A stretch of 64,000 nt of DNA from Periplaneta americana (taxonomy: Eukaryota; Arthropoda; Insecta; Blattodea; Blattidae), in assembly GCF_040183065.1 (NCBI RefSeq), contig NC_091132.1, positions 163,234,102-163,298,101 on the forward strand, given 5' to 3'. Shown here piece after piece: positions 143-64,000 of this stretch (its first letter is position 1; each line of letters starts with the position of its first letter). The position numbers and the translations under genes are program-made. A model generated the notes under the pieces. It saw only the letters and a list, made by a program, of their open reading frames with translations, was not told the origin of the DNA and made no database searches.

Positions 143-567
143 TAGGATGTAAACGAATGCTGTACAATAAGATATTGTTTTGCTCAAGCAGATACTTATT
201 TCCTTACCCTATTCTCACATATAAATATATTTCATTTCTGAGTGACTGTTAAGCTATTACAGAAAATGTATGACTGGAAATGTGAAACTAAATTTTTAAT
301 AATTCCATTAGATGTTTCTTCTGAGAGTAATCAGTGACAGAAAATAGTACAGTTGTCAACTGCAATGTTGATTCCACGACTTCTAACGTCTCTTACTACA
401 ACGAACAAGTTCGAATGAAGGCTATTTAATCTGTAACTCAAAGTTATGACCAAGGTAAGAAATAAATGAAAGTCATGTTTTAAGCAGTAACATCTCCTTG
501 CTGATGAAACTGATAGTAAGTCATCACAAATAACCTATTCTTCCAGTTTAGTAACTGAATTTGTTAG

Positions 568-1850
568 GAGCAAAGGCCGATGAAACTTGACTCAACCCAT
601 TGCAAAAGATGCGACAAGCAAGAAACGCTTCCTCACGTCTTGTGTTTCTGCCATCATGGAGAATTGCTCCAAATCAACAGACATAATACAGTTTCTTCTC
701 TCATTGCATCTTCAATCCGTCAGAATGCTTCCTATGAGGTTTATGAGGAGGTTGGTTGCGTCTCTTCTGATGGCTCTACTAGACGTGCTGATATCATAAT
801 TATGCAAATCTAATCTTACAGGTAAAGCTTCCTGTAAAGCAGATTTGAATAATTTCAAGGGAAAAATTGTTCCGGGGCCGTGTATCGATCCCGGGACCTC
901 TGGTTGAACGTACCAGCGCTCTGCCACTGAGCTACCCGGGAACTCTACCCGACACCGTCTCAACTTTCCCCTTTATATCCACACAACTCGCGTGGGCTGA
1001 TGAAACGCCAGAGACCCACATCGAGTGCACACAAACTTTGTGTGACTTGAAATTGTGGCCCCGGAACAATTTTTCCCTTGAAATTATTCAAATCTGCTTT
1101 ACAGAAAGCTTTACCTGAAAGATTAGATTTGCATAATATATACGTCACTGTGTACGTTAACAGAAAACATTTCAAGTCACAAAGAGTTTGTGTGCACTCG
1201 ATGTGGGTCTCTGGCGTTTCGTCAGCCCACGCGAGTTGTGTGGATATAAAGGGGAAAGTTGAGACGGTGTCTGGTAGAGTTCCCGGGTAGCTCAGTGGCA
1301 GAGCGCTGGTACGTTCAACCAGAGGTCCCGGGATCGATACCCGGCCCCGAAACAATTTTTCCCTTGAAATTATTCATCATCATAATTGATAGGCAGAAGG
1401 ATAAGGGTGTCATTCTTGATCCCACAATCCGTTTCGAGATGCTTGAGCAACAGCCACAAAAGGTGTATCATAAAAAACAAGTCATATATGAGCCTTGTTG
1501 TCAGCATCTTGGAGCACAATACCACATCACACATTGGACAGTTTTTGGGCTCATGTTCGGTACCCGTGGAACGATCCCACGAGAAACTTTAAATCAACTT
1601 AAACAATTTAAAATTTCTGATGCAACGATTGATGCCATAGGATCTCATGTGTTAAAATCATCCTTAGCTATAATTAGTAATCATTTGTACCCAACAAACT
1701 TTTATTGTTTCTTTGTTTTCGTATCATTTATCTTAATGTTTTCTTTTTCCTTTCAAATTGTCACACTATTGATTTTAATGATTACTCTTTATGAATTGAT
1801 CAGTAGGCAGATCTATTCGAACCCTTATTTAGGGCGGCCTAAAAAATTAA
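568..1850 (+). mobile_element. 5'-truncated R2-like LINE, C-terminal part, interrupted
   Basis: The coding remnant starts inside the CCHC knuckle typical of R2-type LINEs (HCKRCDKQETLPHVLCFC: C-x2-C-x8-H-x4-C). It continues with RHN and RRADII blocks, is split by the insertion at 802-1378, and resumes with DKGVILDPTIRFE, IYEPC and ARGTIP-like blocks, ending with NHLY near 1690. These blocks match the LINE copy at 4197-4970. The downstream part is the region where R2-type elements carry a restriction-like endonuclease. The 5' truncation is normal for LINE insertions. Relative to unit A the insert lies between homologues of about 21075 and 21140. Confidence 0.75.
802..1378. mobile_element. Palindromic pair of tRNA-like elements (family S2) inserted in the LINE
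   Basis: Two inverted copies of a unit made of a leader of about 150 bp with ATATAAAGG, a tRNA-like cloverleaf, and a tail CAATTTTTCCCTTGAAATTA. The tRNA-like parts are at 870-943 (minus) and 1279-1353 (plus), with A box TAGCTCAGTGGCAGAGC, anticodon arm CTGGT/ACCAG, loop ACGTTCA (anticodon position GTT) and T arm CCGGG/CCCGG. The whole 577-bp block is flanked by the 9-bp direct repeat ATCATAATT (793-801 and 1379-1387). Removing one repeat and the block restores the LINE frame (RADII-IDRQ), so this was one insertion event. Confidence 0.75.
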
Positions 1851-1868
1851 AATTAATCTGTATAATAC

Positions 1869-2054
1869 CACAATCTAGTATATACAGTCACAAAGCTTGA
1901 GTTTATGAGGGTACTACTAGAAACAATAGACTGTGCAGGTACTATTTCCCATTGTCTCTAATGAGGCGATAGTAGTGATCCTAGTGATTAGCAACTATCT
2001 ATGGATGCATATTTACTACGTACTGAGCTTCGTGACTGTGTATACTAGACTGTG
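1869..2054. mobile_element. Short MITE M1 with ~29-bp TIRs
   Basis: Terminal inverted repeats CACARTCTAGTATAYACAGT continue to about 29 bp on both sides. A target duplication ATAATAC is present at 1862-1868 and 2055-2061. The paralogous sites in units A (about 21143) and B (about 48358) carry a single uninterrupted ATAATACC, so they are empty sites. A second copy in the opposite orientation is at 5142-5323. The 7-8-bp duplication would fit hAT, but the family is not proven. Confidence 0.8.
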
Positions 2055-3121: not shown

Positions 3122-3214
3122 CTCAGACAAAGATTTTCCCTCTTCCGTATATGTGTAACCACTTCTTTCTATTGCCAGAGGGTCTTTCTCACGTTCCATC
3201 TTGATCATGTCCAT
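3122..3214 (-). CDS. Unit 0 ZNF gene, first coding exon (E1')
   Basis: The minus-strand exon begins a few bases after a pyrimidine-rich acceptor (TTCTTTTTCAG|TCTTG ATG) and ends at the donor GAG|GTATTCTATA. It encodes 31 residues starting MDMIKMEREKDPLAIE and ending at a phase-0 junction. Exons at 21462-21548 and 48679-48765 are clear paralogues with the same acceptor and phase. The acidic, lysine-poor N-terminal peptide is the lead-in of this insect ZNF family; I know no biochemical function for it. The acceptor implies at least one upstream untranslated exon. Downstream exons would be left of the window. Whether this copy is still expressed cannot be told: a large palindrome has landed about 40 bp past the donor. 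Confidence 0.7.
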
Positions 3215-3952: not shown

Positions 3953-3954
<2 letters not shown>

Positions 3955-9789: not shown

Positions 9790-10124
9790 ACAAAAGATCG
9801 ATAGGCATGACTGTTTGTGCCAGTCTTAAGAGTGCATATCTTTTGTGGAGGCTGCAAACGACACATAAATGGCTACACGCCTAAGTACCTGGCTTTACAT
9901 GTCTTTCAGTTCTCACGAAAAGCAGAAAAATTTACCACAAATATCGCAGTCACATCGGTTCTCACTTATGTATCTGGTTACAAGCTGTTTCAGGTCTTGC
10001 GAGAACGAGAAAAATATCCCACAAACATCGCAACTGATCCTCTCACTTGTGTCTAAGAGTGCATACTCTTTTACACTACCAGATTCCGAAAATAACTTTC
10101 CACTTATATCACAACTGAATGCAA
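9790..10124 (-). pseudogene. Decayed distal zinc fingers, unit A
   Basis: The minus strand still reads FSCDISGKLFSESGSVKEY, SCDVCGIFFSFSQDLKQL and CDCDICGKFF, fingers that have lost Cys or His ligands. Matching decayed stretches are at 30545-30840 and 57303-57590, so the distal end of the array was already dying before the units split and now works as 3' flank. Confidence 0.7.
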
Positions 10125-13146: not shown

Positions 13147-13758
13147 TCATATGATATCACAACTGAATGCCTTCTCTTCGTGTGTGTACGAGTGAATGTC
13201 TTTTCAGGGTATCAAAGAGAGAAAATTTCTAAATACATCACAACAGTATTTCTTCTCACCAGTGTGTACGATTCTATGCAATCTTACAGTGCTAGATTGC
13301 GAAAATATTTTTCCACATATATCACAAATGAATGTCTTTTCCCCTGTGTGTACCATTCTATGGCTTTTTACAGAAAGAGATTGCGAAATTTTTTTTTCCA
13401 CATATATCACAAGTGAATGCACTCTCCCCTGTGTGTACGAGTGACTGCACTTTAAAATGACCAGATTCCGAAAGCTTCTTTCCACATATATCACAAGTGA
13501 ATGCCTCCTAACCTCAGAGTCTGAGTCGATGCTTTTTTAGATAAACTGATTGAGAAAATGTCTTACCACATATATCACAACTGAATGCCTTCACACCAGT
13601 ATGCACGATTCTATTCTTTCTTGCAGTACAAGATTGCGAAATTTTTTTTCCAAATATATCATAACTGAATGCCCTCTCCCCCGTGTGTACGACTGAATGC
13701 TTTTTAATACTACCAGAATCCGAAAACTTCTTTCCACATATATCACAACTGAATGCCT
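13147..13758 (-). pseudogene. Frame-broken fingers 3' of the unit A array
   Basis: After a one-base deletion at the stop of the main frame (13759; HTG|VKAF expected, HTG-stop found), the next frame reads three more fingers (FSCDICGKKFSDSGSIKKH; a finger with Cys to Phe change; FSCDICGKTFSQSVYLKKH) to 13514. Further breaks follow, with FICDICGKIFSQSSTVRLH still readable near 13310. Either true decay or a consensus error at 13760; read depth would tell. Confidence 0.75.
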
Positions 13759-15394
13759 TCATCCTGTATGTACAATTCTATGCTTTTTTACAGAACCAGA
13801 ATACGAAAATTTCTTTCCACATATATCACAACTGAATGCCTTCTCACCTGTGTGTACTACTAAATGTCTTTTTAGATTACCAGATTCCGAAAACTTCTTT
13901 TCACATATATCACAAGTGAATGCCTTTTCTCCTGTGTGTACGAGTGTATGGTTTTTCAGAGTACCAGATTGAGAAAATTTCTTTCCACAAATATCACAAC
14001 TGAATGGCTTCTCATCTGTATGTAGGACTGAATGTCTTCTTAGGCTACTAGATTCCGAAAACTTCTTTTCACATATATCACAAGTGAATGCCTTTTCTCC
14101 TGTGTGTACGAGTTTATGATTTTTCAAAGCATTATACTGCGAAAATTTCTTTCCACATGTATCACAACTGAATGCCTTCACCCCAGAATGTACGATTCTA
14201 TGCTTTTTTACAGAACGAGAATGAAAAAATTTTTTCCCACATATATCACAACTGAACGCCTTCTCTCCTGTGTGTATGCGTGAATGCACTTTAAGATGAC
14301 GAGATTCCGAAAACTTCTTTCCACATATATCACAAGTGAATGCCATCTCAACTGAGTGTCTGAGTCGGTGCTTTTTTAGATAAACTGATTGAGAAAATTT
14401 CTTACCACATATATCACAACTGAATGCCTTGACCCCAGTATGTACGATTGTATGATTTTTCAGAGCACTGGATTGGGAATATTTCTTTCCACATATATCA
14501 CAACTGAATGCCTTCTGCCCTGTGTGTACGAGAGCATGCCTTTTCAGAGTACGATATAGAAAAAATTTCTTTCTACATATATCACAACTGAACGCCTTGA
14601 CACCGGTGTGTACGACTGTATGATTTTTCAGAGCACTAGAATGCGAATATTTCTTTCCACATATATCACAACTGAACACATGCTGCCCTGTGTGTACGAG
14701 AGCATGCCTTTTCAGAGTATCAGATAGAGAAAATTTCTTTCCACATATATCACAACTGAAAGACTTGTCCCCAGTGTGTACAATTGTATGTTTTTTCAGA
14801 GAATTGGATTGCGAAAATTTCTTTCCACAAATATCACAACTGAATGCCTTCTCACCTGTATGTACGACTGAATGTCTTTTTAGACTACCAGATTCCGAAA
14901 ACTTCTTTTCACATATATCACAAGTGAATGCCTTCGCCCCTGTGTGTACGAGTGTATGCTTTCTTAAATTACAGGTACGCGAAAATTTCTTCCCACATAT
15001 ATCGCAAATGAAAGGCTTCTCCACTGAATGTACTCGGGCATGATTTTTCAGTGTATTAGAGTTCAAAAATATCTTTCCACATACATCACAACTGAATGAT
15101 TTGTTGCCTGTGTGACGAATAGTTTCCGAAAATTTCTTTCTACAAATATCAAAACTGCATGTCTGGTCGCGTTTGTGTACGCAAGGGTGTGTTTTGAGAA
15201 GATCCACCTGCAAACAGTCCCTTCCACAATCATCGGATATCAACGGTCTCTTGCACTCGTGTGGAACAGTATGTCTTTTGAGTTCTATCGAATCGAAAAA
15301 ACACTTTCCACAAACATCACATTTGAAGGTCTTCTCACATGTTTCCAGGCATTCATCTTCTGTATTACTGGTGCAACAAGGTAGAACTCCAGTG
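13759..15394 (-). CDS. ZNF-A terminal exon: C2H2 finger array
   Basis: The exon starts at the acceptor TTTTCTTCACAG|CACTGG and encodes 544 residues. A short lead (TGVLPCCTSNTEDECLETCEK) precedes finger 1 (FKCDVCGKCF). Finger 2 has lost its first Cys, and finger 3 lacks its helix. Sixteen intact fingers follow, of the form FSCDICGKKFxxxxxLKxHxxxH with HTGEKAF linkers: 17 intact and 2 degenerate in total. Predicted contact residues (-1,2,3,6) vary widely: QNSK, LDTR, HSAN, LRTR, QVYK, ERHV, HRSK, EGNR. With E1, E2 and E3 the protein would be about 637 residues. It is presumably a nuclear DNA-binding protein; targets are unknown. The frame ends after an HTG linker through a one-base loss, so the ancestral array was longer. 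Confidence 0.85.
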
Positions 15395-16286: not shown

Positions 16287-16369
16287 CCTTCGGTAAATAC
16301 TTCATTCTCTGCTGCCGTTACTTGTAGTTCGACCTCCTTATCCCCTTTAATTATGTCACTTGCCTCGTC
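16287..16369 (-). CDS. ZNF-A exon E3 (shared acidic linker exon)
   Basis: 83 bp between acceptor TCTTTTACAG|GACGAG and donor GAAGG|GTGAGTGAAG. It enters in phase 0 and leaves in phase 2; GG|C joins to Gly at the array exon. It encodes DEASDIIKGDKEVELQVTAA followed by ENEVFTEG. Units B and C carry the same 83-bp exon with the same sites (42919-43001, 60920-61002). The acidic segment tethers the N-terminal cassette to the fingers; role unknown. Confidence 0.85.
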
Positions 16370-18224: not shown

Positions 18225-18362
18225 CTCCATCTCGCTTTTCATGACGGGGAAGTCAATCGGCACAGGAGACTCCTCAAATGTCATCTCTGATTTCAGATCA
18301 TAGCACTCATCCATACATTCCATCTTCATTTCTGTGATGTCCAGATCTAATATATTTGCTTC
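18225..18362 (-). CDS. ZNF-A exon E2
   Basis: 138 bp, 46 residues, acceptor TATTTTGCAG|GAAGCA and donor ATGGAG|GTAAGTGCAT, phase 0 at both ends. It encodes EANILDLDITEMKMECMDEC ... DLKSEMTFEE ... VPIDFPVMKSEME, very acidic with a VPIDFPVxKSE end typical of this insect ZNF family. Paralogues: 45910-46047 in B, and the related cassette exon E2' at 20322-20459 and 47963-48100. Confidence 0.85.
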
Positions 18363-18661: not shown

Positions 18662-18718
18662 CTCAAAGTTGTTGTTCAGTGTTGGTGTAGGTTCTAGCTG
18701 TAAATCGAGTATGTCCAT
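18662..18718 (-). CDS. ZNF-A exon E1, alternative first coding exon
   Basis: ATG at 18718, then MDILDLQLEPTPTLNNNFE, donor TTTGAG|GTAAGTTAGA, phase 0. The copy at 46347-46403 keeps the ATG, donor and 15 of 19 residues or better. No convincing acceptor precedes the ATG. An AT-rich TTTATAAATAT lies about 35 nt upstream (18742-18753) and is kept in B (about 46428), so this may be a true first exon with its own promoter, though that spacing leaves almost no 5' UTR. Confidence 0.75.
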
Positions 18719-20321: not shown

Positions 20322-20459
20322 CTCGATTTCCCTTTTGGCGAAAGAAATGTCAATTGGCACATCAGTTTTATCAAATGTCATCTTAGAATTTACTTCATAG
20401 CTGTGGTCCATACATTCTGTCTTTATTGCAGTCACTTGCAGATCTAATAAATTTCCTTC
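20322..20459 (-). CDS. ZNF-A exon E2' (second exon of the upstream cassette)
   Basis: 138 bp between GTGTTGCAG|GAAGGA and ATCGAG|GTGAGTACGT, phase 0 at both ends. It encodes EGNLLDLQVTAIKTECMDHS ... EVNSKMTFDKTDVPIDISFA ... KREIE, the canonical form of this family's second exon, and is the same length as E2, from which it is a tandem paralogue. It could splice to E2 or skip to E3 without a frame change. Unit B copy: 47963-48100. Confidence 0.8.
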
Positions 20460-21461: not shown

Positions 21462-21548
21462 CTGATGTTTCTTCTCTTCTATATCTGTGTTATTACTTCC
21501 TTCGAATGCTAGAGTGTCGATCTCACGTTCCTTCTTGACTATGTCCAT
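21462..21548 (-). CDS. ZNF-A exon E1' (canonical first coding exon)
   Basis: Acceptor TTTCTTTTTCAG|CTGTG followed at once by ATG (21548), donor CATCAG|GTATCCCACA, phase 0. 29 residues beginning MDIVKKEREIDTLAFEGSNN and ending IEEKKHQ. Copies: 3122-3214 (unit 0) and 48679-48765 (B). The acceptor just 5' of the ATG shows that a further untranslated exon lies upstream. Joining to E2' gives EEKKHQ-EGNLLDLQV, the usual join in this family. Confidence 0.8.
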
Positions 21549-30544: not shown

Positions 30545-30839
30545 GACTGTGCCAGTCTTAAGTTTGCATATCTTTCGTGCAGGCTGCAAACCACATTATG
30601 GCTACACGTCTAAATATCTGGCTCTACATCTCTTTCAATTGTCACGAAAAGCAGAAACAGTCACCACAAATGGCGCAGTCACATCGATTCTCACTTACGT
30701 ATCTCGTTACATGCTGTTACAGATCTTGCGAGAACGAGAAAAACGTCCCACAAACATCGCAGCTGCACCTCTCACTTGTGTCTAAGAGAGCATACAATTT
30801 TACACTACCAGATTCCGAAAATAGCTTTCACTTATATCG
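30545..30839 (-). pseudogene. Decayed distal fingers, unit B
   Basis: Degenerate finger remnants matching 9790-10124 and 57303-57590; they lie 3' of the stop codon at about 30828-30840. Confidence 0.65.
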
Positions 30840-31335
30840 CAACTGAATACCTTCTGCCCGTGTGTGTACGTTTCTATGGTTTTTTGCATTAATGGATCTC
30901 GAAAACTTCTTTCCACATATATCGCAAGCGAATGCCTTCACCCCAGTGTGTACGAGTCTATGCTTTTTTTGCATTACTAGATTCCGAAACCTTTCCACAT
31001 ATATCACAAGTGAATGCCTTCTCCCCAGTGTGTAGGATTCTATGTTTTTTAACAGAACCAGACCGGGAAAATTTTTTCCCACATATATGACAAGTGAATG
31101 GGTTCTCCCCTGTGTGTACGAGTGAATGCATTTTAAGATGACCAGATTCCAAAAACTTTTTTCCACATATATCACAAGCAAATGCCTTCACCCCAGTGTG
31201 TACCAGTCTATGCTTTTTTGCATTACTAGATTCCGAAAACTTCTTTCCACATATATCACAAGTGAATGCCTTCTCCCTAGTGTGTAGGATTCTATTTTTT
31301 TTACAGAACCAGACTGCGAAAATGTCTTTCTACAT
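30828..31335 (-). pseudogene. ZNF-B array, part cut off by the DUF7869 element
   Basis: The minus strand resumes with KTFSQSGSVKK, then FTCDICGKKFSESSNAKKH, FACDICGKKFLESGHLKMH, FTCHICGKKFSRSGSVKKH, FTCDICGK with a short frame slip, and FACDICGKKFSRSINAKNH, ending HTRAEGIQLRYK and a stop. ZNF-C ends in HTRTEGIQL and a stop at the same place, so this is the ancestral C terminus. The reading frame slips at least twice here, and the piece is separated from the main array by 2.7 kb. Confidence 0.75.
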
Positions 31336-34043: not shown

Positions 34044-35859
34044 TCATACATCACAACTGAATGCCTTCCTCCGCGTGTGCAAAAGTGCATGCTGGTTAAG
34101 AGAACTAGAATGCGAAAACTTCCTGCCACATATATCACAAGTGAATGGCTTCTCCCCTGTGTGTACCCGTGTATGCTCTTTTAAATTACAAGAACGCGAA
34201 AAGTTCTTTCCACATATATCACAACTGAATGCCTTCTGCCTAGTGTGTACGAGTGAATGTCTTTTCAGATTGCCAGGGAGCGAAAACTTCTTTCCACATA
34301 TATCACAACTGAATGCCTTCTCCCCTGAGTGTACGATTGTATGCTGTTTTAGAGAACTAAAATCCAAAAATTTTCTTCCACATATATCACAACTGAATGC
34401 CTTCTGCCCAGTGTGTACGAGTAAATGTTTTTTCAGGTTGCCAGGGCTCGAAAACTTCTTTCCACATATATCACAAATGAATGCCTTCTCCCCTGTGTGT
34501 ACGACTGTATGCCGTTTTAGAGAACTAGAATCCAAAAATTTTCTTCCACATATATCACAACTGAATGCCTTCTCCCCTGTGTGTACGATTGTATGACGTT
34601 TTAGAGAACTAGAATCCAAAAATTTTCTTCCACATATATCACAACTGAATGCCTTCTCCCCTGTGTGTACGATTGTATGCCGATTTAGAGAACTAGAATC
34701 CAAAAATTTTCTTCCACATATATCACAACTGAATGACTTCTGCCCAGTGTGTACGAGTAAATGTCTTTTCAGATTGCCAAGGCTCGAAAATTTCTTTCCA
34801 CATATATCACAAGCGAATGCCTTCACACCAGTGTGTACCAGTCTATGCTTTCTTGCATTACCAGATTCCGAAAACTTCTTTCCACATATATCACAAGTGA
34901 ATGCCTTCACCCCAATGTGTAGGATTCTATGTTTTTTTACAGAACCAGACTGCGAAAATGTCTTTGTACATATATCACAGCTGAATGCCTTCCTCTGAGT
35001 GTGTAAAAGTGCATGCTGGTTAAGAGAACTAGAATGCGAAAACTTCCTCCCACATATATCACAACTGAATGGCATCTCCCCTGTGTGTACCCGTGTATGC
35101 TCTTTTAAATTACCAGAACGCGAAAATATCTTTCCACATATATCACAACTGAATGCCTTCTGCCCAGTGTGTACGAGTGAATGTCTTTTCAGATTGCCAG
35201 GGAGCGAAAACTTCTTTCCACATATATCACAACTGAATGCCTTCTCCCTTGAGTGTACGATTGTATGCAGTTTTAGAGAACTAAAATCCAAAAATTTTCT
35301 TCCACATATATCACAACTGAATGCCTTCTCCCCTGTGTGTACGATTGTATGCCGTTTTAGAGAACTAGAATCCAAAAATTTTCTTCCACACATATCACAA
35401 CTGAATGCCTTCTCCCGTGTGTGTACAAGTGTATGCCTTCTTAAATTAGAGGTAAAAGAAAATTTCTTTCCACATATATCACAACTGAAAGGCTTCTCGT
35501 CTGAATGTACTCGGGCATGATCTTTCAGGGTATAAGAGTTCAAAAACATCTTTCCACATACATCACAACAGAATGATTTGTTGTCTGTGTGACGAAAAGT
35601 TTCCGAAAATTTCTTTCTACAGATATCACAACTGCATGTCTGGTCGCCTGTGTGTGTTTTCAAAAGATCCACCTGCAAACAGTCCTTTCCACAATCATCG
35701 GATATCAACGGTCTCTTGTCCTTGTGTAGAACAGTATGTCTTTTGAGTTCCATCGAATCGAAAAAATACTCTCCACAAACATCACATTTGAAGGTCTTCT
35801 CATATGTTTCCAGGCATTCATCTTCTGTAATACTGTGGCAGCAAGGTGGAACTCCAGAG
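34044..35859 (-). CDS. ZNF-B terminal exon: C2H2 finger array, cut by a transposon
   Basis: Acceptor TTTTCTTCACAG|CTCTGG, then GVPPCCHSITEDECLETYEK and finger 1 (FKCDVCGEYF), degenerate fingers 2 and 3 as in A, and 18 further intact C2H2 fingers: 19 in all over 604 residues. The frame ends FSCDV plus a stop supplied by the transposon end (34044-34046). Fingers 7-10 (helices LDFSSLKLH, SLPGNLKRH, SRSGNLKEH, SHSSSLNQH) are repeated as 18-21, and the repeat runs on past the insertion, so a block of about seven fingers was duplicated inside the array. Many helices use the LDSSSLKRH type absent from A. With E1-E2-E3 the protein would be about 697 residues. Confidence 0.85.
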
Positions 35860-36919: not shown

Positions 36920-37528
36920 TCAGTCTAATCTTCTCAGCCTTTGCTTAAATGTATTGATTTTCAGAGGACCACCCTGAAAGATTGCCGCAGGTAAGCTGTT
37001 CCAGCCTACTATTGTGCGGTTAAGAAAGGAAAATTTTGCCACGTCCGTTTTTTGTTTTCTACATTTAAACTTCCTAATATGATCAGTCCTTCCTAAGTAT
37101 GATGGTGTTGCTAATCTAGCATTGATATCGGTCCATGCTTTGTGTCCCATTTGCGCCTTGAATAATGCGGTGAGTCTGGTTTTTCATCGCCTTGATTTGA
37201 GAAGTTCCCACCCTAAGTCTTTTACTATCTCCTCACCATGTCCCTTCCCCATTTTGACATATTTTGCTGCCTTGCATCGGACCTTTTCTATTGAACCGAT
37301 TTGGTTTTGTCTGTACGGATCCCAACCTACTGCTCCATATTCTATAATTGGGCGAACAAGGGTATTGTATGTTAATTCTTTTGACTTTCGGTTAGATTTC
37401 TTCAGAATACGCATAGAGAAATGTAGTGCTTTCCAGGCTTTCCTTGTGGTATTAGTGACTTGTTCCTCCCAACCCAGTTTGTTACTTAAATATATACCTA
37501 GGTATTTACAAGTGTTCACTTGTGCCAC
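36920..37528 (-). pseudogene. CR1 LINE ORF2, C-terminal region
   Basis: Two open pieces. 37184-37528 has NTCKYLGIYLSNKLGWEEQV and LVRPIIEYGAVGWDPYRQNQ, the usual post-RT thumb (YLGV, LVRPxLEYA). 36920-37150 has DINARLATPSYLGRTDHIRK and FSFLNRTIVGWNSLP, the C terminus of CR1-like ORF2. A frame break lies between them. Confidence 0.8.
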
Positions 37529-37683
37529 GGATGTACCATTCAGCTGATATCCGAGACAAATTTCTTAATGCGTTCTACAGAAGGATATTGACTTTTACTG
37601 ACATTGATTTTCATTTTATTTTCTGTCGTCCGGGTTTCAATAACCTTAAGATCGTTTTGTAAGGCGGCGATATCGGATTCACC

Positions 37684-38638
37684 ATTAACTTGTCTATATA
37701 TTATTGTCGTCTGCGAATAACCTTATTTGAGACGTAGTATTTCTATATATATATATATATATATAAGAAACAATAGAGGTGCAAGGACCGCCCCTTGAGG
37801 CACGCCTGATGTTACTTTTCCTAGTTCCGATATTTCTTTTCCTAGTCTGACTTTTTGGGTTCTGGTCTCTAAGAATTTATTTATCCATCTTACTACTCGA
37901 TTATCTATTGGAATCCTGCTTAGTTTGTCTAAAAGTTTTTCGTGAGGCACTACGTCGAAAGCTTTAGCGAAATCGATCACAACTCCGTCTATTCTTCCCC
38001 CCCCCCCCATCAACTTCATCGGATAAATCTTGTATTAAGGATGTGATTTGACTTTCGCAAGAGTATCCTGGTCTGAAGCCATGTTGATTTTTGTTCAGCC
38101 ATTCGTTATTTTCTAAAATGTTGCGAATATATTGTGTTATTAGATGTTCCATTATTTTGCAGATAACTGATGTGAGACTGACAGGTCTGTAATTGTTCGC
38201 ATCGCATTTGTCTGCTGCTTTATATATGGGGATTATGATAGCCGATTTCCAGTCGTCTGGGATACTACAATTATTTATTGATATATTAAAAATTTGCATT
38301 AAGTACGGGATCATGGCTTCATCTCCTAACTTTATAATTTCTGTGGGAATATCGTCTGGACCACGCGATTTTCGGTTTTGTAGTCTCTTTATTCTGTTCC
38401 GAATATCTTTAGCTGTTATTTCGAACATCTCTGAGCATTCACTTTCATCGATTGTAATCTCTCTTTCCTTTTTATTGAAAATAGTAATAAATTTTGAGTT
38501 TAGTAATTCTGCTTTTTGTTTGTCCCCTGTAATTATTTGGTCATTAGTGTCTCTCAAAACTGGTATTGATTCCCGATTTCCCCTTCTTCTGCGCATGTAA
38601 TTATAAAACCTACCCCAGTTATTTTCACCTTCTTTCAA
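37684..38638 (-). pseudogene. CR1 LINE ORF2, reverse transcriptase
   Basis: Blocks in order: GPDDIPTEIIK, IPIYKAADKCDANNYRPVSL, LNKNQHGFRPGYSCESQI, then after a frame slip at a C-tract (37998-38008) DGVVIDFAKAFDVVPHEKLL, VTSGVPQGAVLAPLLFLIYI. A (TA)n run pushes the frame off just before RLFADDNNIYRQ (about 37690-37725). So the catalytic FADD survives, but the frame is broken twice within the RT. Confidence 0.85.
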
Positions 38639-38956
38639 TAAATTTTGCAGGTAGTTCGCTTCTGCCTTTTTCTTTTCTTCTTCTGTTGTACGCTCGCCTA
38701 GCCTTTTTCTTTAGTTGTCTAACATATTTTGTATAATACTCCGGGTCTGAATTAGTTTTACTATTTTGTAAGGCACATATTTGGAGGTGGCCTCGGTTAA
38801 TATTGGTTTAAAATTTTCCCATACTTGATCCATGGTTTTGCCCTTGTCTAAGCATTTGTTATGTTGATCTATAAGGTAACCTCACAAACCGTTTATGTCT
38901 GTTTTGTTATACTGCCATATTTTCCTAGTGATATCTATTCGGAAATTTGTCTGAAG

Positions 38957-39292
38957 TCAGTTTAGCTCGAGTTGAACACTGTTATGATCACTGATTCCAG
39001 GTAATATTTGTGAAGAATGAAAACTATCCCAGGGTCGTATCAAGAAGACATCTGAAAGGTTATTGTTTCTTGTAGGTTTATTTGTGACCTGTGTAAATCC
39101 TTGTTCCCGTACTAAGTAATTAACAAAGGTTTGTGGAAGGGTGTTTGTCTCTACCTGACCATTCCAGTTCACTGCGGGTAGATTTAAATCCCCTGCTAAC
39201 ACAATCTTCCGTTCTAACGATATTGAGGAAATCTTTTCTTGTAACTTACTCAAAGTAAATAAATTTGTTTCGTTCAGAGGCCTATATCCCAC
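38957..39292 (-). pseudogene. CR1 LINE ORF2, endonuclease C-terminal half
   Basis: Contains KIVLAGDLNLPAVNW (GDxN of APE-type endonucleases) and PGISDHNSVQLEL (SDH motif). The N-terminal half of the domain lies further upstream (39293-39600) in broken frames. Confidence 0.8.
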
Positions 39293-39634
39293 TTTTCACC
39301 ATTGCATTTATTTTTGATTTGTACCGTTATAATTTCTGCTTCTGCATGTGACCATAACAAGCTGCTGTCTATACCTGTTTTAATACAAACAAATACTCCT
39401 CCCCCACTGGCATCTCTATCTCTTCTGTAAATCCTATAATCATTCCTGCATATTTCTGCATCGTATATGTTACTGTGAAGCCATGACTCCGTACCTATAA
39501 TTATCTCCGGATTGTAGATATCAACTAAATTCCAAAATTATTATTTTATTTACTATACTTCTGCAGTTAACCTGTAGCAACCTTAACAGATTGATCCTCA
39601 CCTGTTCGCTGTTCGGTTCCGCGTTGTCCCGTCT

Positions 39635-40201
39635 TCATTGCTGACTCCTGTCCTCTCTCGTCATTGCTGCCACCCTAGCAAAGAGAGCTCCCATCGCCAC
39701 CGTCCCTCTCCGGTTCAGGTACACCCCGTCCTGCCCGAAATCTCTGTCGTCCAGCCACGAGTTGCCGTCCACGTACTGTGTTCCCAGCTGCTCCGCAACC
39801 CACTCGAACTCCTTGTTTGCCCGTCCCACCTTCCTCCAGTTGATGTCGCGACGCCTGATGATCCCGCTGATGATGATGTCCGCTGTCAGGTACCGTTTCT
39901 TCGTAGATGACACCAGATCATATAAGTCCGCCATGATGTAGTCCACGCTTCTTCTTCTCAAATCGTTCGTCCACACATGTAGAATGATTTTCTTAGGTTC
40001 CCCTCTCTCGCGCTGCTCAATTTCGTGTTTCATTTTGTCGACTCGTATTCCCGGGTAGCATTCCACTTCCAGTTCTGGATTTTCTTCTGCCACATATCTG
40101 ACCATCGAGTCCCCTATGACAACACACTCCGCAATTCCTTTTTCCTTCCTCTGTCGTAGTCGTACATTTTCTTCTTCCAGGTTCTTCACTCGTTGTTCCA
40201 C
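39635..40201 (-). CDS. CR1 LINE ORF1, coiled coil and SGNH esterase
   Basis: Begins with a short coiled coil (VKNLEEENVRLRQRKEK), then an SGNH-hydrolase fold: block I VVIGDSMVRY, WTNDLRRRSVDYIMADLYDL (block III, usually GTND) and DGVYLNRRGTVAMGALFARV. Relatives have DGVHLNRRG; here the expected catalytic His is Tyr, so esterase activity is probably lost in this copy. The frame differs from the upstream PHD part (overlap at 40186-40201) by one base. Confidence 0.8.
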   Translation of the reverse strand: MEQRVKNLEEENVRLRQRKEKGIAECVVIGDSMVRYVAEENPELEVECYPGIRVDKMKHEIEQRERGEPKKIILHVWTNDLRRRSVDYIMADLYDLVSSTKKRYLTADIIISGIIRRRDINWRKVGRANKEFEWVAEQLGTQYVDGNSWLDDRDFGQDGVYLNRRGTVAMGALFARVAAMTREDRSQQ

Positions 40202-40614
40202 CCTCCCAGTTTCTCACGCAATGTCTTGTTCTCGTCCCGAAGTGTGTCCAGTTCGTTCTTCACGCTGTTGGTCCCGCAGTCTCTGCACACCCACGTTTCT
40301 TCGATGATCTGGTCACTCTTGATTTTCTGGCATCCCAGGTGAAACCATACCTTGCAGCCGTTGCACAAAACACCTACCCTTAGGTTCTTCTTGCATCTTC
40401 CACATTTAATGCTGGTCTTCTCGGGGTCGTTTATGAATCCTGGGTTCAGCTCCACGCCTCCTATTACCAACATTGTGGCGATTACTATGGCGAAGTAGAT
40501 ATTCACCTTCTGTTGCTTGTCCTGTCCACTTGCCAACCCTTGGCTCATCTTTCCTCGTCCTCCTTCAGCCCACATTCCAATCCTCGCACTGTACGTACCC
40601 ATGTCACAACCCAT
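40186..40614 (-). CDS. CR1 LINE ORF1, 2A-like motif and PHD finger
   Basis: A hydrophobic stretch (YFAIVIATMLVI) leads into GGVELNPGF (residues 52-60, about 40435-40458), close to the 2A ribosome-skipping consensus D(V/I)ExNPGP but with Asp to Gly and the final Pro to Phe. Then a PHD finger: KCGRCKKNLRVGVLCNGC, WFHLGC, WVCRDC, and a coiled coil. This layout is known in CR1/L2-type ORF1 proteins. Confidence 0.8.
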   Translation of the reverse strand: MGCDMGTYSARIGMWAEGGRGKMSQGLASGQDKQQKVNIYFAIVIATMLVIGGVELNPGFINDPEKTSIKCGRCKKNLRVGVLCNGCKVWFHLGCQKIKSDQIIEETWVCRDCGTNSVKNELDTLRDENKTLREKLGGWNNE

Positions 40615-41234
40615 TGTCCCGTAGCAGGTAGAAAACAGGACTTAACTCTACCGAGGTCCGACTGCGACTGTGAGGTCCGACAGCGACCTCGTTACTGGAG
40701 GTACGTTAACAGAAAGCCACAATTTAAAGTCACACAGTATTTGTGTGCACCAACAGTTGAGTTGTGGCGTCTTGTCAGCTCATTTGAGTTGTATGGATAT
40801 AAAAAGGAAAAATTGTGACGGTGTCGTGTATAGTTCCTGCGGTAGCTCAGTCGGTAGACCGTTCGCGCGCTAAGCGAAGGGTCCCGGGATCGATACCCGG
40901 GCCCAGAACAATTTTTCCTTGAAATTATTCAAACCTGCTTTACAGGGAGCTACTACCTGAAAGCCAGATTTATATAATACATTCGTTACTGGAGGTACGT
41001 TAACAGAAAGCCACAATTTAAGTCACACAGTATTTGTGTCCACTCACAGTTGAGTTGCGGCGTCTTGTCAGCTCATGTGAGTTGTGTGGGATATAAAAAG
41101 GAAAAAATTGTGATGGTGTCGCGTATAGTTCCTGGGGTAGCTCAGTCGGTAGAGCGTTCGCGCGCTAAGCGAAGGGTCCCGGGTTTGACACCCGGCCCCA
41201 GAAAAATTTTTCCTTGAAATTATTCTGATCCAAC

Positions 41235-42918: not shown

Positions 42919-43001
42919 CCTTCGGTAAATACTTTATTCTCTTCTGCTGTTACTTGTAGTTCGACCTCATCCTGCTCTTTATTTATGTCACATGCCTCGT
43001 C
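42919..43001 (-). CDS. ZNF-B exon E3
   Basis: Acceptor CTTTTGCAG|GACGAG, donor GAAGG|GTGAGTAGTG, 83 bp, same phases as in A. Reads DEACDINKEQDEVELQVTAE then ENKVFTEG, closer to C than to A, in agreement with the shared Tc1 insertion. The intron to the array is stretched to about 7 kb by the nested transposons. Confidence 0.85.
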
Positions 43002-45909: not shown

Positions 45910-46047
45910 CTCCGGCTCACTTTTCTTGACGGGAAAGTCAATCGGCACATGAGATTCCTCAAATGTCATCTCTGATTTCAGATCAGAGCTCTGATCGACA
46001 TATTCCGTCTTTATATCTGTCATGTCCAGATCTAATATATTTGCTTC
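45910..46047 (-). CDS. ZNF-B exon E2
   Basis: 138 bp, TATTTTGCAG|GAAGCA and CCGGAG|GTAAGTGCAA, phase 0. EANILDLDMTDIKTEYVDQS ... DLKSEMTFEESHVPIDFPVK ... KSEPE. No stop or shift relative to A. Confidence 0.85.
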
Positions 46048-46346: not shown

Positions 46347-46403
46347 CTCAAAGTTGTTGTTCTGTGTTGGTGCAGGTTCCAGCTGTAAATCGTGTATGTC
46401 CAT
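46347..46403 (-). CDS. ZNF-B exon E1
   Basis: ATG at 46403, MDIHDLQLEPAPTQNNNFE, donor TTTGAG|GTAAGTTAGA. All 19 codons open and in phase with E2. Confidence 0.75.
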
Positions 46404-47962: not shown

Positions 47963-48100
47963 CTCGATATCCCTTTTGGCGAAAGAAATGTGAACTGGCA
48001 CATCAGTTTTATCAAATGTCATCTTAGAATTTACTTCATTGCTGTGGTCCATACATTCTGTCTTTATTGCAATAACTTGGACATCTAATAGATTTCCTTC
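47963..48100 (-). CDS. ZNF-B exon E2'
   Basis: GTGTTGCAG|GAAGGA to ATCGAG|GTGAGTGGGT, 138 bp, phase 0. EGNLLDVQVIAIKTECMDHS ... EVNSKMTFDKTDVPVHISFA ... KRDIE. Intact. Confidence 0.8.
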
Positions 48101-48678: not shown

Positions 48679-48765
48679 CTGAAGTTTCTTCTCTTCTATA
48701 TCTGTGTTATTTCTTCCTTCGAATGCTAGAGTGTCGATCTTACTTTCCATCTTGATTACGTCCAT
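48679..48765 (-). CDS. ZNF-B exon E1'
   Basis: TTTTTTCAG|CTGTG ATG ..., donor CTTCAG|GTATCCCACA. MDVIKMESKIDTLAFEGRNN ... DIEEKKLQ, 29 residues, phase 0. The closest of the three E1' copies to the family consensus start MDVIKMExxxDxLAxE. Confidence 0.8.
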
Positions 48766-57590: not shown

Positions 57591-58488
57591 TCACAACTGA
57601 ATACCTTCTGTCCGTGTGTGTACGATTCTATGGTTTTTTGCATTAATGGGTCTCGAGAACTTCTTTCCACATATATCACAAGCGAATGCCTTCTCCCCCG
57701 TGTGTAAGTTTCTATGGTCTTTTACAGAACCGGACTGTGAAAACTTTTTTCCACATATATCACAACTGAATGGCTTCTCCCCTGTGTGTACGAGTGTATG
57801 CCGTTTTAGAGAACCAGACCGCGAAAACTTAATTCCACATATATCACAATCGAATGGCTTCACCCCTGTGTGTACGCGTGTATGCTCTTTTAAATAACCA
57901 GCATGCGAAAATTTCTTTCCACATATATCGCAACCGAATGCCTTCTGCCCAGTGTGTAGGAGTGAATGTCTTTTCAGATTGCTAGGGAGCGAAAACTTCT
58001 TTCCACATATATCACAACTGAATGACTTCTCCTCTGTGTGTACGAATGTATGCTTTTTTAAATTAGAGGTAAAGTAAAATTTCTTTCCACTTTTATCACA
58101 ACTGAAAGCCTTCTCGCCTGAATGTACTCGGGCATGATCTTTCAGGGTATAAGAGTTCAAAAACATCTTTCCACATACATCACAACAGAATGATTTGTTG
58201 CCTGTGTGAGGAATACTTTCCGAAAATTTCTTTCTGCAGATATCACAACTGCATGTCTGGTCTCCTGTGTGCACGCAAGGGTGTATTTTAACAATATCCA
58301 CCTGCAAACAGTCCTTTCCACAAACATCGGCTATCAACGGTCTCTTGTCCTTGTGTAGAACAGTATGTAGTTTGAGTTCCATCGAACCTAAAAAATACTT
58401 TCCACAAACATCACATTTGAAGGTCTTCTCACATGTTTCCAGGCATTCATCTTCAGTAATACTGTGGCAGCAAGGTGGAACTCCAGTG
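57591..58488 (-). CDS. ZNF-C terminal exon: short C2H2 finger array
   Basis: Acceptor TTATCTCCACAG|CACTGG, then GVPPCCHSITEDECLETCEK. Ten finger positions in 298 residues: 1 intact (FKCDVCGKYF), 2 and 3 degenerate as in A and B, 4 intact, 5 with a Cys to Ser loss (FSCDKSGKKF), 6-10 intact (helices SLPSNLKRH, SHAGYLKEH, SRSGSLKRH, SQSGSVKDH, SRPINAKNH). So 7 intact fingers. It ends HTRTEGIQL-stop, matching the ancestral end HTRAEGIQLRYK of B. There is no break inside the exon, making this the cleanest array in the window. N-terminal exons beyond E3 are not visible. Confidence 0.85.
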
Positions 58489-58591: not shown

Positions 58592-60276
58592 CACTGATTG
58601 GCAAAAATATCACGCACCAATAAGGAGCTGCCATTTTCCTGCAAACCTCGGCATACAGTTACATCTCAAGGAGATGGTCACAATGTTTAGCGTAGTAACG
58701 TAATTAGTTGAAGGGTCTTGCCACCAGAGGCCGTGATCCTGCTGTCATCCGTGGCCTCTAAAAGGACTTGCACAGGCTACTTGAACTTAGAGGACTGTTA
58801 TTTCCTGTTGTGTAAAACTCGTCGAAGATTTGACATGCCTCTATGACGTAATCGGAGAGACTTTACCCAGTTACCAGAGTTTGAGAGGGGTCGCATTACT
58901 GGAGTGCGCGAGGCAGGGTGGTCGTATCGGAGAATCGCCAGCCACCTACGACGTTGTGACCAGATTGTCAGGATGTGTTGGGACCAGTGGATGCGTGAGG
59001 GCGCGCAACCACAGCCACTGGGCTCAGGACGCCCTCGACTGACAACCAGGAAAGAAGTTCGTCGGATCTCCAACAAGATCGAACAGATCCAAGAGTGAGC
59101 TACTACCTGAAAGTCAGATTTGTATAATACATTCGTTACCGGAGGTACGTTAACAGAAAGCCACAATTTAAGACACACAGTATTTGTGTCCACTCACAGT
59201 TCAGTTCTGGCGTCTTGTCAGCTCATGTGAGTTGTGTGGATATAAAAAGGAAAAATTGTGACGGTGGCGTGTATAGTTCCTGGGGTAGCTCAGTCGGTAG
59301 AGCGTTCGCGTGCTATGCGAATGGTCCCAGGATCGATACCCGGCCCCAGAAAAATTTCTCCTTGAAATTATTCAGATCCAACTCATCCACCGACCGCCAC
59401 CCTGAGACAGGCCGCTTGAACCATTTCGAGGCGCTTGATTGAAGATAATTTGGTCTCACAGCGCACATTACGTGTCCTGTCATTGACACCCGCCCACCGT
59501 GGCCTCCATTTGCAGTGATGCCGTGGGCGACAAACCTGGACTGCTGCAGACTGGAACCGGGCTTCTTTAGCAATGCATCCAGGTTCTCTTTAAGCTCTGA
59601 TGAAGGTCGTGGTCGTGCCTGGAGACCTTGTGGTGCGCATCTGAATCCTACATTAGCTGTGGCGCAACACACCGCACCCACTGCTGGCGTGCTGGTCTGA
59701 GTAGCCATCGTATTCGACAGTCGGTCACTCCTATTAGTGATACGAGGGACAATAACAGCGCAGCGATATGTGCAGGACATCCTCCTCCCACATGTGTTGC
59801 CACTCGTGGCATGGCTTCGAAGAGGGCTTTTTTAGCAGGATAATGCTCAGTCGCACACAGCAAGGGTGTCACAGGAATGCCTCCCCAATGTTGTCACACT
59901 TCCATGGCCTGCACAATCGCCAGATTCGTCAATAATCGAACATGTCTGGGTCCATCTGGGACGTCAACTGCAGCAGACTAGAAGTTTACAAGATCTAGAG
60001 AACCAGTTGCAGTAAATATGGACAGATATGCCGAAGAATATCATACGAAACCTGCTTGCCTCAATGCCACCCGTATTACACCTTGTATCCTAACTAGAGT
60101 TGAAGAAACAGGGGAATACAACCACAATTCAGGTGGTCAGTTTTCAGCAATACAATTAATATTTTGCTCTAATATTGCAATCATTTACATACATCAACGT
60201 TACGATTATGCATATCAGGTTTCATGCAATTTCCACAACTCCTTTTTGGTACGTGATTTTTTCTTGTCAGACAGTG
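58592..60276 (+). mobile_element. Tc1-like transposon in the E3/array intron of unit C
   Basis: Same insertion as 35959-42157, with ends CACTGATTGGCAAAAATATC and complement CACTGTCTGACAAGAAAAAA, TA at 60277-60278. Transposase remnants at 58845-59090 (RRCDQIVRMCWDQWMREG, GSGRPRLTTRKEVRRI) and 59690-60010 (NIVTLPWPAQS...). The gene is interrupted by one SINE rather than the dimer plus LINE found in B. Confidence 0.85.
59092..59372 (+). mobile_element. tRNA-like SINE S2b, single copy in the Tc1 element of C
   Basis: Flanked by CAGATCCA (59084-59091, 59373-59380). Leader with TATAAAAAGG at about 59240, then the 72-nt cloverleaf 59279-59350 with loop GTGCTAT (U33, GCT at 34-36), tail TTTCTCCTTGAAATTATT. 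No long variable arm, so although GCT is a serine anticodon this is not a normal tRNA-Ser gene. Confidence 0.8.
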
Positions 60277-60919: not shown

Positions 60920-61002
60920 CCTTCGGTAAATACTTCATTCTCTTCTGCCGTTACTTGTAGTTCGACCTCATCCTGCTCTTTATGTATCTCACATGCCTCG
61001 TC
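60920..61002 (-). CDS. ZNF-C exon E3
   Basis: CTTTTGCAG|GACGAG ... GAAGG|GTGAGTGAAG, 83 bp, phases as in A and B. DEACEIHKEQDEVELQVTAE then ENEVFTEG. Intact. Confidence 0.85.
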
Positions 61003-62771
61003 CTGCAAAAGAGTATGTGAAGAGAGGCTATAGAAAAATAATAGCGGAAGGCTCACTGAATAGTAGCTTAAATGCAGCAGACTAATTTTTTAAATCCTAC
61101 TGAATCCAGTAAACAATTCAAGCATTATTGATGTAGAAGGAAGATGAATTTAACAAACACAAAAACAAAATATTATGGCATTTTGTGAAAAATGTCCGTT
61201 TTAAGTAACAATTTTGTAAACTATAATTCAATTGAAAGAGTAAATAAGAATGAAACTTGAATCGTATTCTGAGATGGTCACAAGTAAGTAGGAATCAGGA
61301 AGATCTAGTTGACAAGTGATCAAATTGTTACGGTCAAATTGGTGATGGAAATTTTTTGTGAGGTAGTTTGAAACTATTTCAGATATCTCCGCAATTACAA
61401 CAACCATACGATGGAACTGTAAATCAAAGAAGGTCAGTGAAATTCTAAAACAATTTGATAATGGAGGAAAAGGAATTTGCATACTGTAAACAACAATGGA
61501 AGAAATTTCCTTAATTGTGAAAATTAAGGTGACAATTCCAAGTATAAGTATGTTCATTTACTTCAATTACGGCTTTGATATTTTTATTTTTTCCAAAGTC
61601 CAGATCCATGTTATTAATCCCAATCCTTTCCATTCGTTTAAGGTGGGAGTTTGAATTCGATACGATTAAATGGTCCTCACCAAGTAACAGTGTGAGGTTG
61701 CTACTGAAGAGTGGAGGGGAATGGCAAGGGAACTCTGAAGCTAAATTTGGGTGTTGCTGTTACATCTCCCAACTGTGTAAGCACCGGAAAAATCGCTGTC
61801 ATAGGTAATTGCGATTTTGTCAAAGTGTGATTTTTGTGTTAAAATCATTCTTGGCAATAGTGGGGAGGTAACCACGCCTATCTGTGGATTTCCAATTCGC
61901 CTAGAACTCAATATAACTGTAATCAACAAACCTCTGAATAAACCAAAAGGAGTGCCCAGCTTTTAATGAGCAGAAAGATGTTTATCTTTATCAGTCTGCA
62001 GAAAATTGAATTGATATGCCAGTGCCTTGCTTTATGTGAACAGTGATTAGCTGAGCGTGCAAAGAGAAGAAAACACACGCTCTCAACTGTCATCGCTATA
62101 TGTCGGTATGTACATTCGTTCAAGAATATTTGCGAATGATTAAGAGAAGCATTCATGGAAGAATATAGCGACTCCATAGCTTCACAAAAAAGAGTTACTG
62201 ACGTCAACTTTTGAGCTGAAACAATATTAATTAATCTCATTTGTGTTGACCTACAACAGAAGCATGTGACTTGCAACTGTCTGGACACTGAAGCTGTCAT
62301 TTATACGTACAACAGACCTTACCACTGTGAGTCCCATATTGAGCAGAGATAGTGGTATGTGGGAGCTGTGAATTTGGAACGCTAGAATCCAGCGACAAAC
62401 CTATCACACAGACGAATTTACAAGACTTCAAAGCACACCCCAACAATACTCTGAAGTAGTCATCGAGAAATATCGCGTTCATGCAGATTTGCCAACTATT
62501 GACGTCCCAAGAAATAGGCGTCTACGATGTGGATTTCAACTATCGAAAGAATTAAAAAAAAAAAAAATTACAAGAAACCTAAATAACTGTAATGCCTACA
62601 CCAGGCACAAAACAAAAGTTTACTCACCAATCACCGAGTAACTCTATATGTTGCTGTCAATTAAATTAGAAGTAGATATATTATGAATTCAAGACTGATA
62701 TTATTTAGTAAACCTTCAGCATCAGTCTGTGGAAGAAAAATAGAGTGGAAAAAATTCACGAAGGACTACAG
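61003..62771. other. ZNF-C intron E2-E3 (partial)
   Basis: Collinear with units A and B. It contains the empty sites for the Harbinger MITE (about 62138) and the piggyBac MITE (about 62227) found in B. A poly-A run replaces part of 62553-62566. Confidence 0.6.
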
Positions 62772-64000
62772 GGGCCTGTTTCTCAAAACTCACGGACTAG
62801 TAATACTAGTCTGTACAGTAGTAATAATAGTTTGTTTTACAAGTCTGTGTTTCTAGAAACTACATGGGTAAAGTAGTAGTTACCAGTTCACAGACTAGTA
62901 ATATTGGTCGATTTCACCAGTTCCTAAGAGATTCTGTTTCTCAAAATGCTAATCTAGTTGATTATACTAGTATTCCACAGGAATATTCCTACAAGACTCT
63001 AAAGACTGGTGATTTCTATATTATCAGTTACCAGTGGCAATCTTTCTCAGATAATCAAAACAAAATATTGTAGTTATTTTTTTTAATATATGTGGTTTAG
63101 TGATTCCGACTGAAGTAGTAGAGAAGTTGTTGTGAGAAGAGCTAAAACTATATCGAGAAAGAACAATTATTATTCCTTTACGGGAGCATCGCTTAAATAT
63201 AATGAATGGTTTAAATAAAGTGCTGAAAAGCTTGGAGAGTTGTTCAATATAGAGGGACCTGCCATAACAAGACAAACAAATAGAAGTCATGCATTATCAG
63301 CAAAGCTTCAAATACAAATTGCTCTACAAATCGGGATGTTGATTATTTTCGAATGCCATCTGGTTTTTCTGCCCTAGACCAGCAACACATGCAGAATTTT
63401 TTTCCTAATAATCTGATACCAATTCATCAACTGCAGTAATTTTTGCTGGCTTTCCTCCTCCACTGCCAGTTCTTCTGACATTGTCAACTTTGGCCTACAA
63501 ATTAAATACAAAACGACACTAATTTACGAATGGATCAAACGTAAAACTGAAAAAAAAAAAAAAAAAAAAATTGCGAATTTTTCAAGTCATAAGTAGCATT
63601 CATGTTGCCAGTAGACCCACTAGCTACATAATGTGTTCATATTATGATACTGTGAATTTGAATTGGTACTCGTCAAAGTTGCTTTCTTAACGTCGGGCCA
63701 GTAAGTGTCCCTAACGTATGCATAATCTTTGTTCTGAGGTATCAGTTCCATAGCCTCACATATTACAAATTTTTTTTCCATTCGTTTACTTTATCATTTT
63801 TTGTTACTATGCTTGAAAAAGCACCAAATAATATATCCTTTGATTCATTAATCATATTGAGTTATAGTTAATTTGCTTTCAATTGATGGAATTTCAAGAA
63901 AAGAGAGAAGTAAGAACCAAAACACAAACAACTTAGCCTTCTAAACTCAAATAACAATATCTACCAATGGCTATAAACAAATGAACTCAATCAGCTGACT
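62772..64000 (-). mobile_element. DNA transposon with Myb/SANT-like gene, right end outside
   Basis: Unit homology stops at ...GAAGGACTACAG and is followed by GGGCCTGTTTCTCAAAACTC, a terminus of the type seen in PIF/Harbinger and ISL2EU-like elements. Rows of ACTAGTAATACTAGT-like motifs follow (62805-62905). On the minus strand 63340-63500 reads KVDNVRRTGSGGGKPAKITA, VDELVSDY-stop, NSACVAGL, preceded by a splice-acceptor-like TTTGTAG; this resembles the C-terminal part of Myb/SANT-like partners of Harbinger elements. The far end and target repeat are not in the window. Confidence 0.5.

Follow-up and report, generated by a model that had tools for sequence, protein, structure and literature searches.

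A tandem C2H2 zinc-finger gene family of Periplaneta americana with a private N-terminal module that is a putative SUMO acceptor

We analysed a 64,000-nucleotide stretch of the Periplaneta americana genome (hereafter the window, C16:163234102-163298101, where C16 is contig NC_091132.1 of assembly GCF_040183065.1) that carries four units of a tandem family of spliced C2H2 zinc-finger (ZNF) genes. The units, Z, A, B and C, all lie on the minus strand and follow one another head to tail. The exon order is E0, E2a, E2b, E3 (83 bp) and a single finger exon, and the first four exons together encode an N-terminal module of 148 amino acids (aa) that precedes the fingers, with E2a and E2b contributing 46 aa each. 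A first-pass annotation of the same DNA, made from the letters alone, had described the head-to-tail arrangement, acidic phase-0 exons with conserved acceptor and donor sites, and an 83-bp linker exon followed by one long finger exon, and all of these were observed. Further exons of C (E2 and E0) and Z (E2) were located in the genomic flanks. E0 had been missed by that annotation. The features are as follows.

3122..3214, minus strand: unit Z E0, first coding exon, MDMIKMEREKDPLAIERSGYTYTEEGKSLSE; acceptor and donor intact, remainder of the unit left of the window
21462..21548, minus strand: unit A E0, MDIVKKEREIDTLAFEGSNNTDIEEKKHQ; the first coding exon with the best support, carries one psi-K-x-E site
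20322..20459, minus strand: unit A E2a, acidic exon; 138 bp, phase 0
18662..18718, minus strand: unit A "E1" open frame of the first-pass annotation; doubtful or alternative exon
18225..18362, minus strand: unit A E2b, acidic exon; 138 bp, phase 0, three psi-K-x-E sites
16287..16369, minus strand: unit A E3, linker exon; 83 bp, ends in phase 2
13759..15394, minus strand: unit A finger exon, with 17 C2H2 fingers; ends at a stop that follows a frameshift
13226..13758, minus strand: unit A decayed fingers beyond the frameshift; further relic at 9904-10182
48679..48765, minus strand: unit B E0, MDVIKMESKIDTLAFEGRNNTDIEEKKLQ
47963..48100, minus strand: unit B E2a, acidic exon
46347..46403, minus strand: unit B counterpart of "E1"; doubtful or alternative exon
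45910..46047, minus strand: unit B E2b, acidic exon
42919..43001, minus strand: unit B E3, linker exon; 83 bp
37184..40641, minus strand: probable remnants of a retrotransposon without long terminal repeats (non-LTR), in the unit B intron between E3 and the finger exon
34044..35859, minus strand: unit B finger exon; 19 C2H2 fingers, stop at the start of unrelated sequence
30633..31299, minus strand: unit B relic fingers, past ~2.7 kb of unrelated sequence
60920..61002, minus strand: unit C E3, linker exon; 83 bp
57591..58488, minus strand: unit C finger exon; 7 strict C2H2 fingers

When spliced in silico, units A and B each gave an uninterrupted open reading frame from E0 into the fingers, of 693 aa with 17 fingers and 753 aa with 19 fingers, respectively. 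Two loci elsewhere in the genome, L009 and L021, gave proteins of 419 and 586 aa with the same layout of the 148-aa N-terminus. Tandem fingers of the form C-x2-C-x12-H-x3-H number 17, 19 and 7 in A, B and C, and the unit proteins matched the Pfam models PF00096 and PF13465 far over the cut-off. The outer units extend beyond the window. Unit Z has only its E0 inside; the adjoining 8 kb on the left yielded one E2, and neither an E3 nor a finger exon. Unit C has only E3 and the fingers inside, and its E2 exons and E0 lie just to the right. The E0 of unit C is interrupted by an in-frame TGA, so this unit is either broken or needs another start.

The first-pass annotation had begun the chain with E1, at the junction between 18362 and 18662. 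Our comparison points instead to E0, upstream of E1, as the better supported candidate for the first coding exon, with E2a following it. Among 30 E0 copies compared, from nine chromosomes, the ATG is kept in 28 (the exceptions are L015 and L022). The acceptor and donor are kept in most of the 30; L022 has neither the acceptor AG nor a GT donor, and L014 has GC for GT. Six E0 exons taken from C3, C4, C5, C6, C12 and C15 were all open. E1-like DNA is present in A, B, C and 7 of 20 other loci. An open frame with an ATG and a GT donor spans 19 codons in each of A, B and C and 8 codons in each of L011 and L014; the frame is broken in L009, L010, L012 (two copies), L015 and L018. The E1 of A and B are 94.6% identical over 147 bases, and the A-B intron flanks are 82-96% identical, except for 55% upstream of the finger exon. 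Because the frame is broken in 5 of the 10 units with matching DNA and E1 diverges like the surrounding intron, we rejected it as the first exon of the family. It could serve as an alternative first exon in some units, namely the five that keep it open. In those units the ATG and GT donor are kept even though the middle is deleted in-frame in two (L011, L014). Given the stop in the E0 of unit C, E1 may be a young alternative first exon.

Beyond the window, 20 other loci were each taken from E0 through 9.5 kb downstream. All 31 E2 and 8 E3 candidates in these loci could be framed as open exons, many of them bounded by ttgcag and gtgagt, an openness that is partly selected because the script sought splice sites giving an open frame. 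At the thresholds used, at least one E2 was found in 17 of the 20 loci, E3 in 8, and the head of a finger exon in 2. Few finger heads within 9.5 kb are expected if many genes exceed 10 kb, as unit B does. Six further stretches of 5.4-5.6 kb from other clusters contained E2 by likeness in three cases (L037, L038, L040) and E3 in one; the exon of L039 was found through its motifs and is excluded from these counts. The exon chain and its splice sites recur on several chromosomes.

Genome-wide searches covered 3,231,669,367 bases in 91 contigs, with 17 chromosome-scale scaffolds, of one individual's assembly. The exact E0-start pattern occurred at 184 places, compared with 0 for the reversed control. 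In a search with the canonical E0, the best 150 of 805 first-look candidates all had E<=2.4e-4, and one contained a stop. The first-pass annotation had proposed a genome search for the E1/E2 peptide; E2 does recur. Of its 1558 first-look candidates, the best 150 lie on C16, C17, C9 and C12, are free of stops and all have E<=2.6e-13. First-look candidates are not confirmed matches, and gene counts given here are lower bounds or extrapolations. Since 14 of the 30 known E0 copies, themselves picked for likeness to the exact pattern, carry it, we infer that the family is very large, probably with several hundred copies. This supports the earlier description, in which tandemly arranged, spliced ZNF genes share an N-terminal module of their own; the size of the family goes far beyond what the window shows.

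The best 150 E0 matches are concentrated on two chromosomes, with 121 on C16 or C17: 75 on C16 between 150.8 and 182.6 Mb (of 190.0) and 46 on C17 between 0.1 and 15.1 Mb (of 137.7). An E0 match lies within 60 kb of 33 of 150 finger matches, on the same strand for 32 of those 33, and only 19 of the 33 have their nearest E0 upstream on the same strand. Matches on C16 fall into 14 strand runs, compared with 37.8 in shuffles (minimum 21 of 5000). The effect was weaker on C17 (18 vs 23.9, minimum 11) and C12 (4 vs 8.2, minimum 3).

The largest clusters occupy terminal stretches of C16 and C17, and matches on C3, C4, C5 and C9 lie at most ~7 Mb from a chromosome end. Interior matches were also observed, on C12 (34.7-37.4 Mb), C6 (76.6-77.0 Mb), C15 (167.8 Mb of 186.7) and C2 (29.1 Mb). 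A second compact array, known from E0-start 20-mers alone, was seen at C4:202017242-202256500, where eleven identical 20-mers lie on the plus strand, ten of them spaced 12-26 kb, ~6.5 Mb from the end of C4. Two zinc-finger stretches on different chromosomes, C16:180885700-180887200 (L034) and C17:568800-570300 (L035), are 98.3% identical over 1478 bases, and around them several finger matches have equal frame lengths in the same order over ~0.5 Mb of the two chromosome ends. Two origins would explain this likeness: the chromosome ends exchanged sequence recently, or the assembly put an allelic copy in the wrong place.

Variation within the fingers is concentrated at the positions expected to contact DNA. 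Across 134 fingers, helix positions -1, 2, 3 and 6 had entropies of 3.40, 3.14, 3.07 and 3.46, four of the five highest; position 8 was also variable (3.27). The ratio of the proportions of nonsynonymous and synonymous differences (pN/pS), taken uncorrected over all between-gene pairs of A, B, C, L009 and L021, was 1.00 for contact codons, 0.14 for the conserved F and L, and 0.60 for the others. We do not rely on a pooled value of 0.09 obtained at structural finger positions, since the C and H are imposed by the search pattern; the calculation was repeated with F and L only. A contact ratio from nearest neighbours chosen by third codon positions was likewise left unused, as such a choice lowers pS. 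The pattern, which is not proof of positive selection, is one of a fold that appears to be kept while specificity is free to diverge.

The finger exon of unit A terminates at a frameshift stop (13759-13761), the array of unit B stops at ~34044 and resumes at ~31299 beyond unrelated sequence, and decayed relic fingers lie downstream in A, B and C. A classical transposon signature was sought for the interruption in B and rejected: no word as long as 6 bases was shared between the stretches compared, and the one inverted match seen was internal, of 11 bases. Many finger repeats hold a stop in an alternative frame (EGIQL-stop), so a frameshift ends the protein near that finger, leaving a shorter array with no long wrong tail. 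The terminal residues are GIQL in unit C and in L021, and EGIQ in L009. The unit B array also has an internal block duplication (34044-35453), with the finger run DFSSLK, LPGNLK, RSGNLK/RSCNLK, HSSSLN present twice.

The frameshift in A, the interruption in B and the TGA in the E0 of C could mean that the window copies are mostly birth-and-death relics, with little or no function of their own, within a family that works elsewhere. Divergence among these copies fits the same explanation. The ratio of nonsynonymous to synonymous substitution rates (omega) between the N-terminal exons of A and B was 1.09 over 444 nucleotides, which is compatible with relaxed constraint, and the finger-exon heads of A, B and C gave 1.1-1.5; these recent copies alone show no purifying selection. 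Yet the reading frames of A and B run without a stop from E0 through 17 and 19 fingers, a truncation in the last exon usually escapes mRNA decay, and the low ratio at the conserved finger F and L was obtained with A, B and C included. We regard the relic explanation as unlikely. Across the 29 full-length E2 exons, the E2a type had a median omega of 0.76, calculated from 77 of 78 pairs, and the E2b type one of 0.52 (120 pairs). In all 34 pairs taken from far-apart loci the exons aligned; for the intron flanks the counts were 19 and 15. Among the full set of 406 pairs, flanks still aligned in 338 and 310 cases, which means that a large part of the family is young.

The N-terminal module resembled no known domain in the searches made. 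No Pfam domain scored above the cut-off (CCDC90-like, E 0.68, and CS, with an E of 0.06, both fell short of it), and no NCBIfam model or PDB chain matched. KRAB (PF01352) had no match at E<=10 in the N-termini of A, B and L021; a KRAB search of the genome was also empty, as were its controls, so this result does not show absence from the genome. The zf-AD domain (PF07776) was unmatched in the N-terminal modules, while the genome itself gave 54 zf-AD matches at E<=0.001 among 150 scored, over many chromosomes. Peptide strings did not occur in the literature searched. Similar N-termini (MDVIK...) presumably exist among cockroach and termite database proteins.

What the module does contain is a repeated psi-K-x-E motif, matching the SUMO acceptor consensus psi-K-x-D/E as described for Bonus (PMC10672805). 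We counted 72 such motifs in 29 E2 exons, whereas 2000 composition shuffles gave 4.7 +/- 2.1 and never more than 13. The 22 E0 exons held 20, compared with 2.8. These counts left out 6 of 35 E2 and 1 of 11 E3 exons of non-standard length. The spliced frames of A, B, L009 and L021 have 4-6 sites within the 148 aa and none in the finger part. The motif is thus present beyond chance, in copies that are not independent.

Conservation by column was evaluated in 33 E2 exons, namely the same 29 plus two of unit C, one of unit Z and that of L040. At the three E2 sites, the columns that hold K or E had a pN of 0.070, one third of the overall average of 0.209. Six columns drawn at random equalled this in 0.055% of draws, and in 1.3% when nine columns including psi were considered. 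The six slowest columns were K13, K42, E15, E44, D18 and C16. K13 is identical in 33 of 33 exons; among the 29, K13 is kept in 29, E15 in 28 and K42 in 28. Where site 2 has been lost, in L026 and L040, a new psi-K-x-E lies four residues further on.

The same columns bear on two other explanations of the module. An acidic N-terminus may be a transactivation domain, in which acidic and aromatic clusters recruit Mediator or coactivators, so that the proteins would be activators of diverse gene targets. The acidic fraction of 0.23-0.40 across E0, E2 and E3 fits this, as do the aromatic residues beside the acidic ones (F29 in 25, Y21 in 20 and F38 in 18 of 29 E2 exons) and the lack of a known repressor domain in the N-terminus. 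Acidic activation domains do not, however, need K13 and K42 with a glutamate at +2, which are among the slowest columns, and lysine is usually depleted in such domains; we consider this explanation improbable. The E2 peptide near PVPIDFPVVKSE might otherwise serve above all to dock a corepressor, CtBP for example, with the lysines mattering in another way (acetylation or charge pattern). P35 is present in 25 of 29 E2 exons, and the commonest residues that follow are I36 (21), D37 (18) and F38 (18). CtBP binds P-x-D-L-S, to which this is a poor fit, and conservation at D37 and F38 is much lower than at K13, E15 and K42, which makes docking very unlikely as the main role.

We tentatively favour, at a probability of roughly 45%, the reading that these genes are a lineage-expanded tandem family of poly-C2H2 repressors whose N-terminus is a putative multi-site SUMO acceptor. 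The fingers would carry this N-terminus to DNA, and the attached SUMO would recruit silencing machinery as for Drosophila Bonus (the E3 ligase Su(var)2-10, SetDB1 and NuRD), making the proteins sequence-specific repressors that act without KRAB or KAP-1. In Drosophila, Bonus depends for repression on SUMO that Su(var)2-10 attaches at a psi-K-x-E close to the N-terminus, a modification that affects the interaction with SetDB1 (PMC10672805). As to the cockroach itself, the zf-MIZ domain was matched at 2 places in the genome. This is a domain of PIAS-type SUMO ligases.

A number of observations weigh against this reading. The motif is not clearly enriched in E3, with 4 in 10 exons vs 1.1 expected and a shuffle maximum of 5. 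D18 is invariant and C16 is among the six slowest columns, and such conserved columns outside the motif mean that the module may do something else, or more. K24 and E26 fall outside the ten slowest columns, the psi column of site 2 and that of site 3 are highly variable, and in A, B, C and L009 E2a retains only site 1. Shared ancestry, and E2 queries that contained the motif, make the copies neither independent nor unselected, and the A-B omega given above belongs here as well.

A weaker step of the proposal is that many of the targets may be transposable elements, which would have driven the expansion of the family. The strongest form would be a KRAB-like silencing system of the cockroach's own, with several hundred tandem repressors whose built-in SUMO platform by-passes KAP-1, in an arms race with recently active transposons. 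We consider this form rather unlikely, and the silencing of transposons, also raised in the first-pass annotation, is put forward here as a hypothesis. Drosophila ZAD-ZNFs seem not to target transposons specifically (PMC10547256), and loss of Bonus hardly affects transposons (PMC10672805); both count against this part of the proposal.

Repeats make up 65.86% of the P. americana assembly (PAMFEO1_priV1, GCF_040183065.1; PMC12774602). Within the window, the unit B intron between E3 and the finger exon gave an RVT_1 match just over the cut-off (37964-38710), a PHD match (40186-40641) and a GDSL match below the cut-off (39635-40213), and 37184-37564 matched no Pfam model; the stretch 37184-40641 as a whole is a probable non-LTR retrotransposon remnant. 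Two similar open frames were also observed in introns between E3 and the finger exon, at 41165-41710 in B, which had no Pfam match, and at 59313-59831 in C. They are probably an uncharacterised interspersed repeat.

The family can be set beside several known systems. Its likeness to the KRAB-ZNF clusters of tetrapods, pointed out in the first-pass annotation, holds for the organisation (clustered head-to-tail arrays, an N-terminal module before one finger exon, variable contact residues) and not for the domain, given that the cockroach module has no KRAB match. A direct KAP-1 orthologue is described as missing in insects (PMC6444547). There is likeness, by description, to the FiNZ-ZNFs of cyprinid fish, which have a short glutamate-rich N-terminal segment with no known domain upstream of the finger exon, hundreds of clustered copies, and signs of selection on DNA-contact residues, where the cockroach family has diversified contact residues (PMC10547256). 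FiNZ is a single 28-aa exon, whereas the cockroach module has 148 aa over four exons with a repeated psi-K-x-E; the knockdown evidence for transposon repression belongs to the FiNZ-ZNFs (PMC10547256), and the cockroach family is known from sequence alone.

Among insects, the ZAD-ZNFs are likewise expanded C2H2 genes with a private N-terminal module, but the ZAD (zf-AD) is a folded zinc-binding domain, and it is unmatched in the cockroach family proteins. The ZF271-like expansions of milkweed bug and pea aphid are similar in being recent, independent C2H2 expansions with clusters, pseudogenes and high turnover; the parts of PMC6444547 that describe them report no domain beyond the fingers, whereas the cockroach family has its conserved N-terminal module. 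A termite has more than 350 C2H2 proteins (PMC6444547), and zinc-finger families are described as among the fastest changing in arthropods, with Blattella showing the most rapid family changes (PMC6977273). The words "zinc" and "transcription factor" do not occur in the main text, supplements aside, of the genome paper (PMC12774602), and the family is not named in the titles or abstract openings of the papers returned by literature searches on cockroach, termite or insect zinc-finger expansion.

The likely SUMO-attachment sites of the N-terminal module suggest, without proving it, that the family may be to insects what the zinc-finger families that silence genes are to vertebrates. PMC6444547 asks how C2H2 families that have expanded in insects can work when KRAB and KAP-1 are absent, and the cockroach family offers a testable candidate answer, namely that SUMO acceptor sites within the N-terminus itself would serve this role. 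Its copy number and head-to-tail arrays also make it a strong system for the study of rapid zinc-finger evolution outside vertebrates.

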